36,657 nucleotides of DNA from Gaiellales bacterium (GTDB lineage Bacteria; Actinomycetota; Thermoleophilia; Gaiellales; JAICJC01), in assembly GCA_036273515.1 (NCBI GenBank), contig DASUHM010000041.1, positions 1 to 36,657 of the forward strand, in the 5' to 3' direction. Position 1 is the stretch's first letter, and every line of letters starts with the position of its first letter. Below the pieces are notes generated by a model, which was not told the DNA's origin, made no database searches, and worked only from the letters and a program-made list of their open reading frames with translations. Made by a program: the position numbers and the translations under genes. Positions 16,944 through 24,792 of the stretch are shown here, piece by piece.

Positions 16944-17360
16944 CTCCAGGTCGCGCCGCTTGATGACGTCCTGGTCGCCGGCCGAGAACCGGCGCCGGCG
17001 GTCCACGTCGGCGGGGTCGACCATCTCGCCGTCACGCTCGACGTAGCCGTCGCGGCCGCCGATCGCGAGCAGCACGAGATCGTCGCCGCCGGCGTTCCAG
17101 AACCGCCGCGGCGTGGTCGTCTCGACGTGCACGGCGCCGCCCGGCCCGAGCTCGAAGGACTCGCCCTCCACCTCGAACCCGGCCGTCCCGGCGTGGACGA
17201 AGTAGAGCTCGTCCTGGCGGCGGTGGAAGTGGTTGAACCACTCCGTGCCGGGCGGAAGGACGATCGCATTCACGCCGAACGCCGTCACGCCCAGCTCCTG
17301 GCGCAGCTTGCGGAAGACGCCGGGCCCGAGCTCGTCGATCGTCGTCACCCGGTGTGCCAT
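16941..17360 (-). CDS. Cupin domain protein
   Basis: The 139-residue protein has one conserved cupin core. Motif 1 is FNHFHRRQDELYFVHAG, with the two histidines and the glutamate that bind a metal, and motif 2 is represented by the beta strands around GGAVHVETTTPRRFWNAGG. Single-domain cupins include isomerases, dioxygenases and storage or regulatory proteins, so no reaction can be given. The start at 17360 follows a -10 box TAGAGT by six bases. It heads a short tandem with the PRC-like gene and is divergent from the secreted beta-propeller gene. Confidence 0.88.
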   Translation of the reverse strand: MAHRVTTIDELGPGVFRKLRQELGVTAFGVNAIVLPPGTEWFNHFHRRQDELYFVHAGTAGFEVEGESFELGPGGAVHVETTTPRRFWNAGGDDLVLLAIGGRDGYVERDGEMVDPADVDRRRRFSAGDQDVIKRRDLE

Positions 17361-17366
17361 TCGGGC

Positions 17367-17372
17367 ACTCTA
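17367..17372 (-). promoter_or_regulatory. -10 box TAGAGT of the cupin gene
   Basis: TAGAGT on the minus strand is six bases from the ATG at 17360. The divergent box TATGAT (17404-17409) lies only 31 bp away. Confidence 0.55.
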
Positions 17373-17403
17373 GAGCGGGCGAGTGGCCGCGGCCGGAGCG
17401 GGG

Positions 17404-17409
17404 TATGAT
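17404..17409 (+). promoter_or_regulatory. -10 box TATGAT of the secreted propeller gene
   Basis: TATGAT is seven bases before the ATG at 17417, which favours that start over the ATG at 17405 inside the box. Confidence 0.55.
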
Positions 17410-17416
17410 CTCGCCG

Positions 17417-18532
17417 ATGCGGAGGCTGCCAAGGAGGGGGCGCGTCGGCGCGGCGGCGGTGCTGGCGCTCACGGCGCTGGCCGGGACGCCCGCGGCCGCG
17501 ACGGCCCACCACCCGCCGTCCTGGCACGTCGTCCACCACGGAGGCAGCGCCGACCTGCGCGCGATCAGCCCGGTCTCGCGGCGCGTCGTCTGGGCGAGCG
17601 GCAGCGGCGGCACGGTGCTCCGGACCACCGACGGCGGCCGCTCGTGGAAGAACGTCGGCCCGAAGGGGACGAGCGCGCTCGAGTTCCGCGGCATGAAGGC
17701 CTTCGACGCCCGGCATGCCGTGCTCATGTCGATCGGCGACCACCCCGGCGACTTCCGCACGTACCTGACGTCCGACGGCGGCCGCCACTGGCGGGTGACG
17801 AATCAGAACACCAGCCCGCAGGCCTTCTACGACTGCATGTCGTTCTTCGACCGCCGCCACGGGCTCATCCTGAGCGACCCGGTCAACGGGCGCTTCCGCA
17901 TCCTGATCACCGCGAACGGCGGCCGCAGCTGGCATGTGAACCCGGCCCGCAACATGCCGAGGGCGCACTCGCCCGACGAGTTCGGGTTCGCCGCCTCGAA
18001 CGAGTGCATCACGACCTCGGGCAGGCACGACGCCTGGTTCGGCAGCGGCGGCACCGCCGGCGGGCGCGTCTTCGGCTCGACGGACGGCGGCCACCACTGG
18101 AAGGTGTCGCAGACGCCCATCGCGAGCGGCGACAGCTCCGGCATCTTCGCGGTCGCGTTCCGAAACGGCCTGCAGGGCCTCGCCATCGGCGGCGACTTCG
18201 CCAACCCGGCCACCGCGCCGCGGTCGCTCGCCCTGACGGCGGACGGCGGCCGCACCTGGACGCTCGTCGCCGACAGCGCCGCCCCGAACGCGTACCGCTC
18301 CGGCGCGACCTTCGTCCCGCACACCGCGGGCACCGCGCTCGCCGTCGGCCTGACCGGCAGCGACATCTCGACCGACGGCGGCTTCTCGTGGACGCGCTTC
18401 GACCGCGGCAGCTTCGACGCCGTGGTCTGCACGCCGCACGGCTCATGCTGGGCGTCGGGCGCGAACGAGCGCATCGGCGTCCTGCGGCGCGAGAACGCAA
18501 TTGACATCCTCGGCGGACGCCAATTGCGTTAA
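17417..18532 (+). CDS. Secreted BNR/Ycf48-like beta-propeller protein
   Basis: The 371-residue protein begins with a basic, then hydrophobic signal peptide (residues 1 to about 30, ending AAATA). Repeated BNR turns follow (TTDGGRSWKN, TSDGGRHWRV, TADGGRTWTL and STDGGFSWTR), giving a propeller like that of the photosystem II assembly factor Ycf48 and plant-type oxidoreductase-like proteins. Function outside the cell is unknown. An ATG at 17405 with a weak GGAG upstream would add four residues, but it overlaps the likely -10 box. The last 13 codons lie in a perfect inverted repeat that also covers the stop, so the C-terminus may stem from a repeat insertion. A longer relative lies at 10762-12324. 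Confidence 0.82.
   Translation: MRRLPRRGRVGAAAVLALTALAGTPAAATAHHPPSWHVVHHGGSADLRAISPVSRRVVWASGSGGTVLRTTDGGRSWKNVGPKGTSALEFRGMKAFDARHAVLMSIGDHPGDFRTYLTSDGGRHWRVTNQNTSPQAFYDCMSFFDRRHGLILSDPVNGRFRILITANGGRSWHVNPARNMPRAHSPDEFGFAASNECITTSGRHDAWFGSGGTAGGRVFGSTDGGHHWKVSQTPIASGDSSGIFAVAFRNGLQGLAIGGDFANPATAPRSLALTADGGRTWTLVADSAAPNAYRSGATFVPHTAGTALAVGLTGSDISTDGGFSWTRFDRGSFDAVVCTPHGSCWASGANERIGVLRRENAIDILGGRQLR
18494..18530. terminator. Inverted repeat over the 3' end of the propeller gene
   Basis: AACGCAATTG (18494-18503) and CAATTGCGTT (18521-18530) are perfect inverted arms around 17 bases. The right arm supplies the T of the TAA stop (18530-18532). It could be a terminator or the end of a small repeat element. 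Confidence 0.6.
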
Positions 18533-19987: not shown

Positions 19988-21253
19988 ATGGCCACCGCGA
20001 CGCCGCCCATGGTGCTGCACCTCTCGCTGATCGTCGGCGGCACGCTGCGCGACCGAAACGGGGGACGGCTCGGGAGCGTCGACGACCTGATCGTGCATCT
20101 CGGCGAGGACTACCCGCCCGTCACGGGAGTGCTGGCGCGAGTCGCGGGCCGGCAGGTCTTCGTCCCGGCGTCCGAGCTCGCCGAGATCGCGCACGCGCGC
20201 GTCGAGATGGTGTCCGACCGGATCGACCTCCAGCCGTTCGAGCGCCGGGAAGGCGAGGTGCTGCTGCGCAAGGACGTGCTCGACCGCCAGCTGATCAACA
20301 TCGACGGCGCCCGGCTCGTGCGCGCGAACGAGATCGAGATCGCCCGGATCGAGGGCTGGTACCGGGTCGTCGGGGTCGACACCGGCCTGCGCGGCATCGT
20401 CCGCCGGGTGGTGCCGCGGCGGGTCGGCACCAACATGCCGCCCGGCGCGTTCCTCGACTGGGCGAGCGTCGAGGCGTTCACGGGCCACGTCCCCACGGTG
20501 CGCCTGCGCATCCCCCATCCCAAGCTGGCCCGGCTCCACCCGGCCCAGCTGGCCGACCTGGTCGAGGCGGCGTCCCACAACGAGGGCCGCGAGATCATGA
20601 CCGCCGTCGGCGACGACAGCGAGCTCGAGGCGGACGTCTACGAGGAGCTCGACGCCCAGCACCGGCGCGAGTTCGTCGAGGAGCGGCCCGACGAGGAGGT
20701 GGCCCAGCTGCTGGAGCGAATGGAGCCGGACGACGCCGTCGACCTGCTCGGCGACCTCCCCGACGAGCGGCGCGAGGAGGTCGTCCGCCTGCTCCCGCCC
20801 GTGCAGCGCCGGCGCGTGCGCGCCCTGGCCGGCTACGACCCGGCCACCGCCGGCGGCCTCATGAGCCCCGAGTTCGTGTGCCTGTACGCGCAGGCGTCGA
20901 AGGCGGAGGCGATCGAGCGGATCGAGCGCAGCCGCGCCCCTGCGGACACGCTGGCCTGGGTCTACGTGATGAACCTCGACCGCCGTCTCAAGGGCGCGAT
21001 CGCGCTCGCCGACCTGCTGCGCGCGCCGTCCGACGGCACGATGGGCGACGTCGCCACTTTCCTGCCGCCGCGCGTCTCGGCCGAGGCCGGGCTCGAGGAG
21101 GTCGCGCGGCTCATGACGGACTATGACCTGACCGTCGTCCCGGTGGTCGACGAGCGCGACCAGATCATGGGCGTCGTCAGCGTCGACGACGTGCTCGAGA
21201 TGGTGCTGCCGCGTGGCTGGCGGCGCCGGTTCGACGTGCTGGGAGCTGATTGA
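19988..21253 (+). CDS. PRC-barrel / MgtE-N / CBS domain protein, no transmembrane part
   Basis: The 421-residue protein has PRC-barrel-like segments in about residues 10-165 (RLGSVDDLIVHL and its repeat VVGVDTGLRGIV). An MgtE N-terminal superhelical domain follows at about 175-280 (LARLHPAQLADLVEA...LERMEPDDAVDLLGDLP), then a CBS pair to the end (MSPEFVCLYAQ, VVPVVDERDQIMGVVSVDDVL). MgtE-N and CBS domains are the Mg2+-sensing cytoplasmic gate of the MgtE channel, but the channel helices are absent here. The stop overlaps a TTG of the next gene, an Nramp relative, so it may sense Mg2+ and regulate that carrier. This is inference from gene order and domains. Confidence 0.9.
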   Translation: MATATPPMVLHLSLIVGGTLRDRNGGRLGSVDDLIVHLGEDYPPVTGVLARVAGRQVFVPASELAEIAHARVEMVSDRIDLQPFERREGEVLLRKDVLDRQLINIDGARLVRANEIEIARIEGWYRVVGVDTGLRGIVRRVVPRRVGTNMPPGAFLDWASVEAFTGHVPTVRLRIPHPKLARLHPAQLADLVEAASHNEGREIMTAVGDDSELEADVYEELDAQHRREFVEERPDEEVAQLLERMEPDDAVDLLGDLPDERREEVVRLLPPVQRRRVRALAGYDPATAGGLMSPEFVCLYAQASKAEAIERIERSRAPADTLAWVYVMNLDRRLKGAIALADLLRAPSDGTMGDVATFLPPRVSAEAGLEEVARLMTDYDLTVVPVVDERDQIMGVVSVDDVLEMVLPRGWRRRFDVLGAD

Positions 21254-21261
21254 GAGGATGG

Positions 21262-22587
21262 ATGGCGGGCCGTGTATCTGCGCTGCGCGCGTTTCGCCAC
21301 CGCCTCCTCCGCGGCAGGTCGGACGGCGCACCCCGCGGCCCGCTCAGCCGCGGCACCGCCCGCCTGCTCGCCGTCATCGGCTTCCTCGGGCCGGGCCTGA
21401 TCGCCGCCAACGCCGGCAACGACGCCGGCGGCATCGCCACCTACTCGGCCGTCGGCGCGCGGTACGGCTTCGACCTCCTGTGGATGATGGTGGTCATCAC
21501 GGCCTCGCTGATCGTGGTGCAGGAGATGGCCGCGCGGATGGGTGCCGTCACCGGCAAGGGGTTGGCCGAGCTGATCCGCGAGCAGTACGGCGTGCGCTGG
21601 TCGCTGTTTGCGACCACCTCCGTGCTGATCGCAAACGTCGGCATCTGCATCTCGGAGTTCGTCGGTATCGGCGCGGCCCTCGGCCTGGCCGGCATCCCCG
21701 CGCAGGTGTCCGTGCCGATCGCCGCGGTCGGCGTCTGGCTGCTCCTGATCCGCGGCTCGTACAAGGTGGCCGAGCGCATCTTCGTGCTGATGACGATCAC
21801 GTTCTTCGCCTACCCGATCGCCGCGATCCTGGCCCGGCCGGACTGGGGCTCGGTCGGCCACTCGATCGTCGCCCCCGACATCCACGACTCGCGCGCGTAC
21901 CTGTTCCTCTTCATCGCGACCGCGGGCACGACCATCACGCCGTTCATGCAGCTCTACGTCCAGTCGGCCGTGGTCGAGCGCGGCGTCGGCGTCGACGAGC
22001 TGAACATGGAGCGGGCCGAGGTGACCTCGGGGTCGATCTTCGCGAACCTCGTCGCGATGTTCATCATCATCGCCACCGGCGCGACCCTCTACCTGCACGG
22101 CGAGCACGACATCTCGACGGCGTCGCAGGCGGCCAAGGCGCTCGAGCCGTTCGCCGGCCAGTACGCAGAGGTGCTCTTCGCCGTCGGCCTGCTGGGCGCC
22201 AGCCTGCTCGCCGCCGCGATCCTGCCGGTCACCGCCGCGTACGTGATCGCGGAGACGTTCGGCTTCGAGAAGGGGATCAGCCGCCGCATCCACGAGGCTC
22301 CGGTCTTCGTCGCGGTGATCACCGCCCTGATCCTGATCGGCACCATCGTCGCGATCATCCCCGGCATCCCCGTCATCGCCCTGCTGGTCGGCGTGCAGGT
22401 CGTGAACGGCGCGCTGCTGCCCGTGCTCCTGATCTTCATCTGGCGGCTCGCGAGCGACCGCGAGCTGATGGGCGACTACCGCAACGGCCGGTTCTTCAAC
22501 GTCATCGCCGGGCTGACGGTGGTGGCGACGTCGGCGCTCTCGATCACCCTTCTCGCCGTGACCATCGGCGCGCCCTTCTTGTCGTGA
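21262..22587 (+). CDS. Nramp-family divalent cation transporter with non-canonical metal motifs
   Basis: The 441-residue carrier has about eleven membrane helices. The helix-1 motif, DPGN in canonical Nramp carriers, reads DAGG (residues 54-57). The helix-6 motif, normally MPH, reads TPF (residues 226-228, in AGTTITPFMQ). The metal-binding aspartate is kept, but the methionine that favours transition metals is gone, as described for Nramp-related Mg2+ transporters. Such a change points to Mg2+ rather than Mn2+ or Fe2+. The ATG at 21262 has AGAGG four bases upstream; a TTG at 21250 overlapping the previous stop is an alternative. Its 3' end carries a 26-bp tandem duplication. Coupling to the MgtE-N/CBS gene supports a Mg2+ role. 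Confidence 0.9.
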   Translation: MAGRVSALRAFRHRLLRGRSDGAPRGPLSRGTARLLAVIGFLGPGLIAANAGNDAGGIATYSAVGARYGFDLLWMMVVITASLIVVQEMAARMGAVTGKGLAELIREQYGVRWSLFATTSVLIANVGICISEFVGIGAALGLAGIPAQVSVPIAAVGVWLLLIRGSYKVAERIFVLMTITFFAYPIAAILARPDWGSVGHSIVAPDIHDSRAYLFLFIATAGTTITPFMQLYVQSAVVERGVGVDELNMERAEVTSGSIFANLVAMFIIIATGATLYLHGEHDISTASQAAKALEPFAGQYAEVLFAVGLLGASLLAAAILPVTAAYVIAETFGFEKGISRRIHEAPVFVAVITALILIGTIVAIIPGIPVIALLVGVQVVNGALLPVLLIFIWRLASDRELMGDYRNGRFFNVIAGLTVVATSALSITLLAVTIGAPFLS

Positions 22588-23463: not shown

Positions 23464-23483
23464 ACGGGGTCAGACCCCCGTTA
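23461..23483. terminator. GGGGTCAGACCCC hairpin joining two convergent stop codons
   Basis: The arms TAAACGGGGTC and GACCCCCGTTA meet around a central A, with small bulges. The left TAA is the hydrolase stop, and the right TTA is the reverse complement of the cytochrome stop at 23481-23483. It is probably a bidirectional terminator formed by the dispersed repeat. Confidence 0.65.
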
Positions 23484-24143
23484 GTCATCGGCGTCCCACT
23501 TGGGGTGGTGACGGCGGGCCCAGTCGCGCCGCACCGTGCCGAGCACCATGCCCCGCAGCGAGTGGCGGGTCGAGGCGTTGACCAGCACCAGGTAGAGGTG
23601 GCCGGCGACCAGCGGCACGGCGATCCAGGTGGCGATGTCGTGGACGAGGATCGCGCTCGTGCGCCCGCGCACGGCCGCGTCGGTCTCCTGCAGATACATG
23701 AGCAGGCCGCTGACCGAGAACACCAGCATGAGCCCGAAGACCACGGCGGTGTTCAGCTTCTGCCCCGCGTTGAAGCGGCCCTGCGGCGGCTCGTCGCCGC
23801 GCCGCGTCACCGCCCAGCGCATCCAGCGCAGATCGTCCTCGTCGAAGCGGTCGACCTCGGAGGCGGTGCGGCGCAGGCGCCCGCCGGTGTCGCTCGCGAC
23901 CAGGACGACGAGCCCCGCCCAGAACGCGATCGCAGCGCCCAGGTGGAGCGACTTCCACAGGCGCCGGTTGGCCGCCAGCTCGGCGAACGCCGGCAGGTAG
24001 AGGATCAGGCCGGTGGCGAGCAGGATGAGGAACGTGACCGCGAGCAGCCAGTGGAGCGAGCGCTCCTCCGGCCAGAACCGGCGCACGTAGACCGGCCGCG
24101 GCCGGCCGCGCTCAGTACCCGTTCGAGCGGCCGACCCAGGCAT
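23481..24143 (-). CDS. Cytochrome b561 / formate-dehydrogenase-gamma-like membrane subunit
   Basis: The 220-residue protein has four membrane helices. Histidines suited to bind two b hemes occur in RSLHWLLAVTF, KSLHLGAAIAF, LVHDIATWIAV and AGHLYLVLV. This is the plan of the b-type cytochromes that carry quinol electrons to molybdoenzymes. It begins inside the end of the molybdoenzyme gene (32-bp overlap), so the two proteins probably work as one membrane complex, comparable to the MsrP-MsrQ pair. The start at 24143 has no Shine-Dalgarno; GTG codons about 20 residues further in could also serve, as the family core begins VRRFWPEERSLHW. Confidence 0.88.
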   Translation of the reverse strand: MPGSAARTGTERGRPRPVYVRRFWPEERSLHWLLAVTFLILLATGLILYLPAFAELAANRRLWKSLHLGAAIAFWAGLVVLVASDTGGRLRRTASEVDRFDEDDLRWMRWAVTRRGDEPPQGRFNAGQKLNTAVVFGLMLVFSVSGLLMYLQETDAAVRGRTSAILVHDIATWIAVPLVAGHLYLVLVNASTRHSLRGMVLGTVRRDWARRHHPKWDADD

Positions 24144-24792
24144 CGACGTCGTAGCCGTTCTGCTCCCAGAACCCGGGCTCGAGCTGCGGCACGAGCTCGA
24201 TCCGGTGGAGCCATTTCACGCTCTTGTAGCCGTACATCTCGGGGATCACGAGCCGCATCGGCGACCCGTGCGCGCGCGCCAGCGGCTGCCCTTGCATCGT
24301 GTGGGCGAGCATCACGTCGGGCAGGGTCGTCTGCTTCATCGAGAGCGTGTCGACGTAGCCGCGCTCCATCGAGACGAAGTTGGCGTAGCGGGCGCTCGGC
24401 AGCGGCTCGACCATGTCCCACAGCGTCTGCAGGCGCACGCCGCGCCAGTGCACGTTCGAGACCGTCCACCCGGTGACGCAGTGGAAGGTGTTCGTCTGCG
24501 AGACCGCCGGCAGGGCACGCACCTCGGGCCATGTCAGCGTGACCGGCTTGCGGACGTGGCCGGTGATCTCGAGCCGGTAGTCGGCGGGATCGAACGTCGG
24601 CCACGGCGGGTTGATCGCGTAGATGCGCCAGCCGGTCGGGAAGACGTCCTTGATCGCGTTCGGGACGATCGAGCCGGCGTCGGCGATCGGGGCGTGCAGC
24701 GCCGAGGTGATGCGGTCGCCGAAGAGCAGGCCGATCCCGCCGGCGCCGACCACCGAGAGGAATGCCGCGCGGCCGATGCGTCGTTCACCCAT
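24112..24792 (-). CDS. Sulfite-oxidase-like (MsrP/YedY-type) molybdopterin oxidoreductase
   Basis: The 226-residue protein is one oxidoreductase molybdopterin-binding domain. The molybdenum-ligating cysteine is C105 in TFHCVTGW. Further conserved parts are WRGVRLQTLWDMV and GSPMRLVIPEMYGYKSVKWL. Its N-terminus (RRIGRAAFLSVVGAGGIGLLF) is basic then hydrophobic and may be an export signal or an anchor, although the twin-arginine motif is not perfect. By family it reduces or oxidises an S- or N-oxide, or a similar substrate, at the outer face, with electrons exchanged through the overlapping cytochrome b. A weak -10-like CATACT lies seven bases upstream. Which compound it acts on is open. Confidence 0.9.
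   Translation of the reverse strand: MGERRIGRAAFLSVVGAGGIGLLFGDRITSALHAPIADAGSIVPNAIKDVFPTGWRIYAINPPWPTFDPADYRLEITGHVRKPVTLTWPEVRALPAVSQTNTFHCVTGWTVSNVHWRGVRLQTLWDMVEPLPSARYANFVSMERGYVDTLSMKQTTLPDVMLAHTMQGQPLARAHGSPMRLVIPEMYGYKSVKWLHRIELVPQLEPGFWEQNGYDVDAWVGRSNGY

Follow-up and report, generated by a model that had tools for sequence, protein, structure and literature searches.

The gene pair and its setting

The window, by which we mean the whole 36,657-nucleotide stretch analysed (contig DASUHM010000041.1, positions 1-36,657, of a Gaiellales bacterium, assembly GCA_036273515.1), holds a gene for a soluble protein with PRC-like, MgtE_N and CBS domains, hereafter the module, and, 8 nt downstream on the same strand, a gene for an Nramp-family carrier. 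The features of the pair are as follows.

19988..21253 (+): gene for the soluble PRC/MgtE_N/CBS module, 421 aa, stop included
20009..20209 (+): first PRC-like half, residues 8-74, a weak Pfam PRC match, beta-rich in the structure model
20255..20476 (+): second beta-rich half of the model, residues 90-163, presumably PRC-like
20534..20842 (+): MgtE_N domain, residues 183-285
20849..21205 (+): CBS pair, residues 288-406
21206..21229 (+): LPRGWRRR tail in place of the MgtE plug helix
21262..22587 (+): NRMT-type Nramp carrier gene, 441 aa from its ATG, stop included
21421..21432 (+): TM1 site motif DAGG, residues 54-57 (DPGN in MntH)
21928..21945 (+): TM6 site motif TTITPF, residues T223-F228 (A..MPH in MntH)

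An alternative TTG start at 21250 would lengthen the carrier to 445 aa and create a 4-nt overlap with the module gene. Third-codon-position GC is alike in the two open reading frames (0.96-0.97), and both genes, together with their flanking genes, recur in conserved order in another Thermoleophilia assembly (L004; 90%/89% identical), which takes the pairing far beyond chance. The coupling of a soluble PRC/MgtE-N/CBS protein to an Nramp relative, as proposed in the preliminary description, is thus borne out by the Pfam matches, the same-strand spacing and the gene order in L004. A single 884-aa module-carrier reading frame that appeared in L004 was rejected as a frame artefact, as the module stop codon is present. 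Scans for sigma-70 promoters and terminators gave no matches, no M-box was found in the window, and only ~59 bases separate the module gene from a divergent GNAT gene. Further afield in the window lie a gene for a BNR/YCF48-like beta-propeller repeat protein (17354-18532, +) and, at 23481-24792 (-), a molybdopterin oxidoreductase gene adjoining that of a cytochrome b561-type membrane protein, resembling a YedYZ-like pair.

The carrier

By its sequence, the carrier is a member of the NRMT clade of the Nramp family. The open reading frame matches the Pfam Nramp profile with an E of 4e-91, and its site residues D54, G57, T223 and T226 conform to the NRMT signature of PMC8806188, in which DxxG replaces DxxN in TM1 and TxxA/T replaces A/CxxM in TM6. 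The closest PDB relative is EleNRMT (7qia, E 4e-107), with an MntH as runner-up (3e-28); identity is 46% to EleNRMT vs 25-27% to MntH-type carriers, and in the tree the carrier nests in the EleNRMT clade, split from MntH with support 100. Residues of the proton path are also gone, His232 of MntH being replaced by Phe in TM6 and Asp131 by Cys in TM3, which is the EleNRMT pattern. EleNRMT is itself a proven uncoupled transporter of Mg2+ and Mn2+ that works without H+ coupling (PMC8806188). The same genome encodes a separate, ordinary MntH with DPGN and MPH, and it is the combination of NRMT site, EleNRMT clade, lost proton path and separate MntH that leads us to expect Mg2+ as the main substrate. 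The genome further encodes two CorA proteins, so the pair would not be its only route for Mg2+; the MgtE membrane domain (PF01769) has no match anywhere in the window's assembly, and MgtA has none above the cut-off in the window's genome.

The substitutions of DAGG for DPGN (residues 54-57) and of TPF for MPH (within T-I-T-P-F in TM6) stand as the preliminary description had them. Its general premise, that Nramp relatives without the methionine carry Mg2+, is too broad: loss of the methionine is insufficient, as EcoDMT M235A admitted Ca2+ and conversion of the whole site gave no Mg2+ transport (PMC8806188), and the NrmT of Acidobacterium rescued Mn2+ uptake and Mg2+ uptake only weakly (PMC4072509).

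The sensor module

The module keeps the sensor core of MgtE, and the part that contacts the pore has been swapped for the short LPRGWRRR tail. Pfam recognises MgtE_N (E 2e-22) and two CBS domains (E 3e-14); the PRC match is weak (E 0.018, below the Pfam cut-off), relatives of the module exceed that cut-off, and the structure model (pLDDT 86) places both beta-rich halves ahead of the N domain. The window module encodes no transmembrane domain, the MgtE pore domain (PF01769) with Asp432 being absent from it. In a fold search, the module from residue 160 onwards matches the Mg2+-bound cytosolic domain of MgtE (Z 22, rmsd 1.9, 241 residues); the matches are all to CBS or MgtE domains and are uninformative on the PRC-like half. 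Residues D216, D248 and D252 of MgtE_N align with the MgtE Mg2+ ligand positions E59, D91 and D95, and D380, D401 and E404 of the CBS pair align with D226, D247 and D250 (roles of the ligand sites from PMC5882242). In other words, all six of these TtMgtE positions are acidic in the module (D,D,D,D,D,E), with D226 alone a weak marker that varies among ordinary MgtE too. The plug-helix ligands E258/D259 of TtMgtE are R/R in the module, and the helix itself, which in MgtE transmits gating, is gone; therefore, any coupling to the carrier must differ from MgtE gating.

How might a soluble protein of this kind have arisen? Many relatives carry an extra 190-230 C-terminal residues that partly match the MgtE membrane domain, and these membrane-bearing relatives are probably Coriobacteriia, judged by closeness to EleNRMT. 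None of the 24 aligned membrane-bearing modules has the pore aspartate D432, which 10 of 10 ordinary MgtE have; despite the loss of the pore, most modules keep acidic residues at the cytoplasmic Mg2+ ligand sites. Loci at which the membrane region is kept and the pore aspartate lost are L163, L165-L168, L170-L174, L176-L178, L180-L183, L185, L186, L188, L189 and L195-L198; Pfam detects an MgtE domain in the C-terminal membrane region of L166, L195 and L196, and the modules of L195-L198 are located away from a carrier. At L175, L179, L184 and L187, carriers nearly identical to EleNRMT adjoin a module with a hydrophobic C-terminal tail of 43-48 residues, which we read as a putative single membrane helix; the accessible part of the EleNRMT structural paper (PMC8806188) makes no mention of this partner. 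Window-type modules, with no membrane domain, would then be the end point in a proposed direction of change, pore decay followed by loss.

Linkage across the phylum

In a sample of 246 genomes drawn from the phylum, a search with the window module (P0001) returned 91 PRC-bearing modules and 59 ordinary MgtE. An Nramp carrier lies within 4 kb of 47 of the 91 modules, directly downstream on the same strand in 43 of those 47; a DUF1003 gene is directly downstream of another 29, and 15 have neither partner beside them. None of the 59 ordinary MgtE adjoins an Nramp carrier or DUF1003. Co-occurrence of the two genes, raised in the preliminary description, is seen at the level of whole genomes as well: 59 have carrier and module, 8 the carrier only, 2 the module only and 177 neither. 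These counts ignore phylogeny, and the safer number is that of the families with adjacency, 21 when counted by hand. The only pair seen outside the phylum, from which the genome sample was taken, is in Candidatus Roizmanbacteria (L025).

Could the two genes be mere neighbours with no functional link? The two window genes do differ in tree position, and of 77 carriers 22 have a module that lies apart from them in the genome and 8 come with no module, yet adjacency in 21 families, 47 observed cases against ~0.3 expected by chance, and the fact that ordinary MgtE is never adjacent make this very improbable.

Ties to magnesium

Two further observations connect the module with Mg2+. First, the M-box Mg2+ riboswitch was found at 13 of 46 fetched module-carrier pairs, and no Mn2+ riboswitch in the 76 loci scanned. 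For example, in L151 (2275-2443) an M-box sits between the module and a carrier of the longer NRMT subgroup (~530 aa), which ties that subgroup to Mg2+ as well. Second, in two assemblies of different families (L193:3093-7043 (-) and L194:2781-6731 (-)), a single 1317-aa open reading frame has the module in front and the Mg2+ P-type ATPase MgtA behind (TIGR01524, 1077 bits vs a cut-off of 611). Among 18 genomes of that order, 2 have the fusion; the two are 90% identical over the module, so a single event may lie behind both.

Exchange of partners

The window carrier joins four members of one carrier subgroup (support 98), but the window module falls among modules whose carriers belong to the other subgroup (supports 99 and 95). 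A constraint joining the module to the partners of the carrier's sisters was rejected (p 0.0011, from a quick tree search). The window module and carrier are thus not strictly co-inherited, and the discordant tree positions suggest that the module can be re-paired, i.e. that partners are exchanged, which fits a self-contained sensor. One genome (G096) has a module next to an Nramp carrier and a second one next to DUF1003.

The second kind of partner, DUF1003 (PF06210), is a membrane protein for which a weak model (pLDDT 67, pTM 0.28) predicts a helical hairpin together with a long helix; a profile search found no PDB relative. The modules linked to DUF1003 form one clade (support 100). Examples of modules directly upstream of DUF1003 are L018:3971-5754 and L199-L204. 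DUF1003 is thus a candidate for Mg2+ transport; the literature searched, mostly outside subscription journals, names DUF1003 in only 2 papers and never together with magnesium.

We offer tentatively, as slightly less than an even bet, a wider proposal: that a pore-less MgtE-type channel has become an exchangeable Mg2+-sensing subunit for two NRMT subgroups, for MgtA (by fusion) and for DUF1003, that DUF1003 is an unrecognised Mg2+ transport protein, and that the window pair came about by partner exchange. If the module is such a shared Mg2+ gate, then one and the same sensor would account for how a channel family, a carrier and a pump are controlled, and the hardly studied membrane family DUF1003 would become a candidate Mg2+ protein.

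Proposed mechanism and alternatives

For the pair itself, we favour, with some confidence, a two-part Mg2+ uptake system in which an NRMT carrier is joined by a Mg2+-feedback module derived from a pore-less MgtE-type channel. The split Mg2+ system of the preliminary description, in which an unrelated carrier has acquired sensor domains of the MgtE type, is supported by the NRMT clade, the M-box in relatives, the strong co-occurrence and the MgtA fusion. The carrier would move largely hydrated Mg2+, and also Mn2+, down its electrochemical gradient without protons. Its soluble partner would derive from a channel of the MgtE type in which the pore first decayed and later disappeared; the acidic sites of the N domain and CBS pair, homologous to those of MgtE, would have kept the ability to bind Mg2+. 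With cytosolic Mg2+ above a millimolar threshold, the module would close, like the MgtE cytosolic domain, and, probably bound to the carrier from the cytosolic side, would hold it in a non-transporting state; both the docking and the inhibitory sign are suppositions. At low Mg2+, the module would relax and uptake would proceed. Elsewhere, the module would serve other Mg2+ importers, MgtA by fusion and probably DUF1003.

Such a feedback stop would be needed because uncoupled Mg2+ entry would be driven by the membrane potential; in MgtE the cytosolic domain provides one for the channel's own pore. NRMT carriers without proton coupling could let Mg2+ run in, and what shuts them off is the question on which the module bears. 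Co-expression of the Acidobacterium partner with its carrier had no effect (Shin et al. 2014; PMC4072509); that experiment sought improved rescue, which is not expected from an inhibitor, and so does not settle the matter of regulation. NRMTs function alone, whether in complementation assays or reconstituted in liposomes (PMC4072509; PMC8806188), so the partner is not required for transport.

Does the module gate the carrier at all? It might instead aid folding, insertion or stability of the carrier or hand over Mg2+, or its CBS pair might answer mainly to a nucleotide. The MgtE CBS pair does bind ATP (PMC5529423, abstract), and the coupled gene order and the loss of the plug helix also sit well with such a helper. 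The dead membrane domain of some relatives could be a scaffold. PRC-like barrels, for their part, often act as docking domains. Set against this are the published assays in which carriers are functional without the module, and the Mg2+ ligand positions, which are kept though the pore is gone and which a pure scaffold would not need; we therefore judge a helper or nucleotide role unlikely.

The choice of metal is a separate question. Were the carrier mainly an importer of Mn2+ or another transition metal, with a module responsive to that metal, the weak rescue of Mg2+ uptake by the Acidobacterium NrmT, whose gene has an MgtE-like gene adjacent and which did rescue Mn2+ uptake, would be accounted for, and EleNRMT moves Mn2+ as well (PMC8806188). 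We give this alternative little credence: the genome already has an ordinary MntH for Mn2+, related pairs have the M-box and none a Mn2+ riboswitch, the same module is fused to MgtA, and the carrier, with its proton path missing, shares 46% identity with EleNRMT, which transports Mg2+.

Comparison with known systems

Returning to the two-part Mg2+ system, its arrangement is not new. Shin et al. reported in 2014 that most nrmT genes have a gene for an MgtE cytoplasmic domain as their neighbour, and suggested that it exerts feedback control (PMC4072509), so both the arrangement and the hypothesis are already published and the window pair adds a member. What appears to be new is the DUF1003 pairing, the MgtA fusion and the pore-less intermediates; no mention of these was found in a search that lay mostly outside subscription journals, which is weak evidence of novelty.

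The nrmT operons of Clostridium acetobutylicum (Ca_c0685) and Acidobacterium capsulatum (Acp2976-Acp2977) (PMC4072509) match the window in the pair, in the order, with the MgtE-like gene upstream, and in the proposed role. The window differs in having no M-box, an optional element that only some members have, and in that its module is nearest to modules paired with another carrier subgroup; the PRC-like barrels of the window module and its LPRGWRRR tail, which stands for the plug helix, may be further differences. EleNRMT of Eggerthella lenta (7qia; eLife 2022, PMC8806188) shares with the window carrier the DxxG-TxxA/T site and the absence of both the His of the proton path and the Asp of TM3, whereas T226 and F228 of the window carrier are A and W in EleNRMT. 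EleNRMT, the best-studied NRMT, was characterised alone, with no partner. MgtE of Thermus thermophilus (2yvx/2yvy) is like the module in its N domain and CBS pair (at the Z of 22 given above) and in most cytosolic ligand positions, whereas the window module has neither pore domain nor plug helix and has gained a PRC-like N terminus. Finally, the Mg2+ P-type ATPase MgtA, a transporter unrelated to the Nramp carrier, has a module of this kind fused ahead of it in L193/L194; attached to several unrelated membrane transporters, the sensor looks like a reusable control part.
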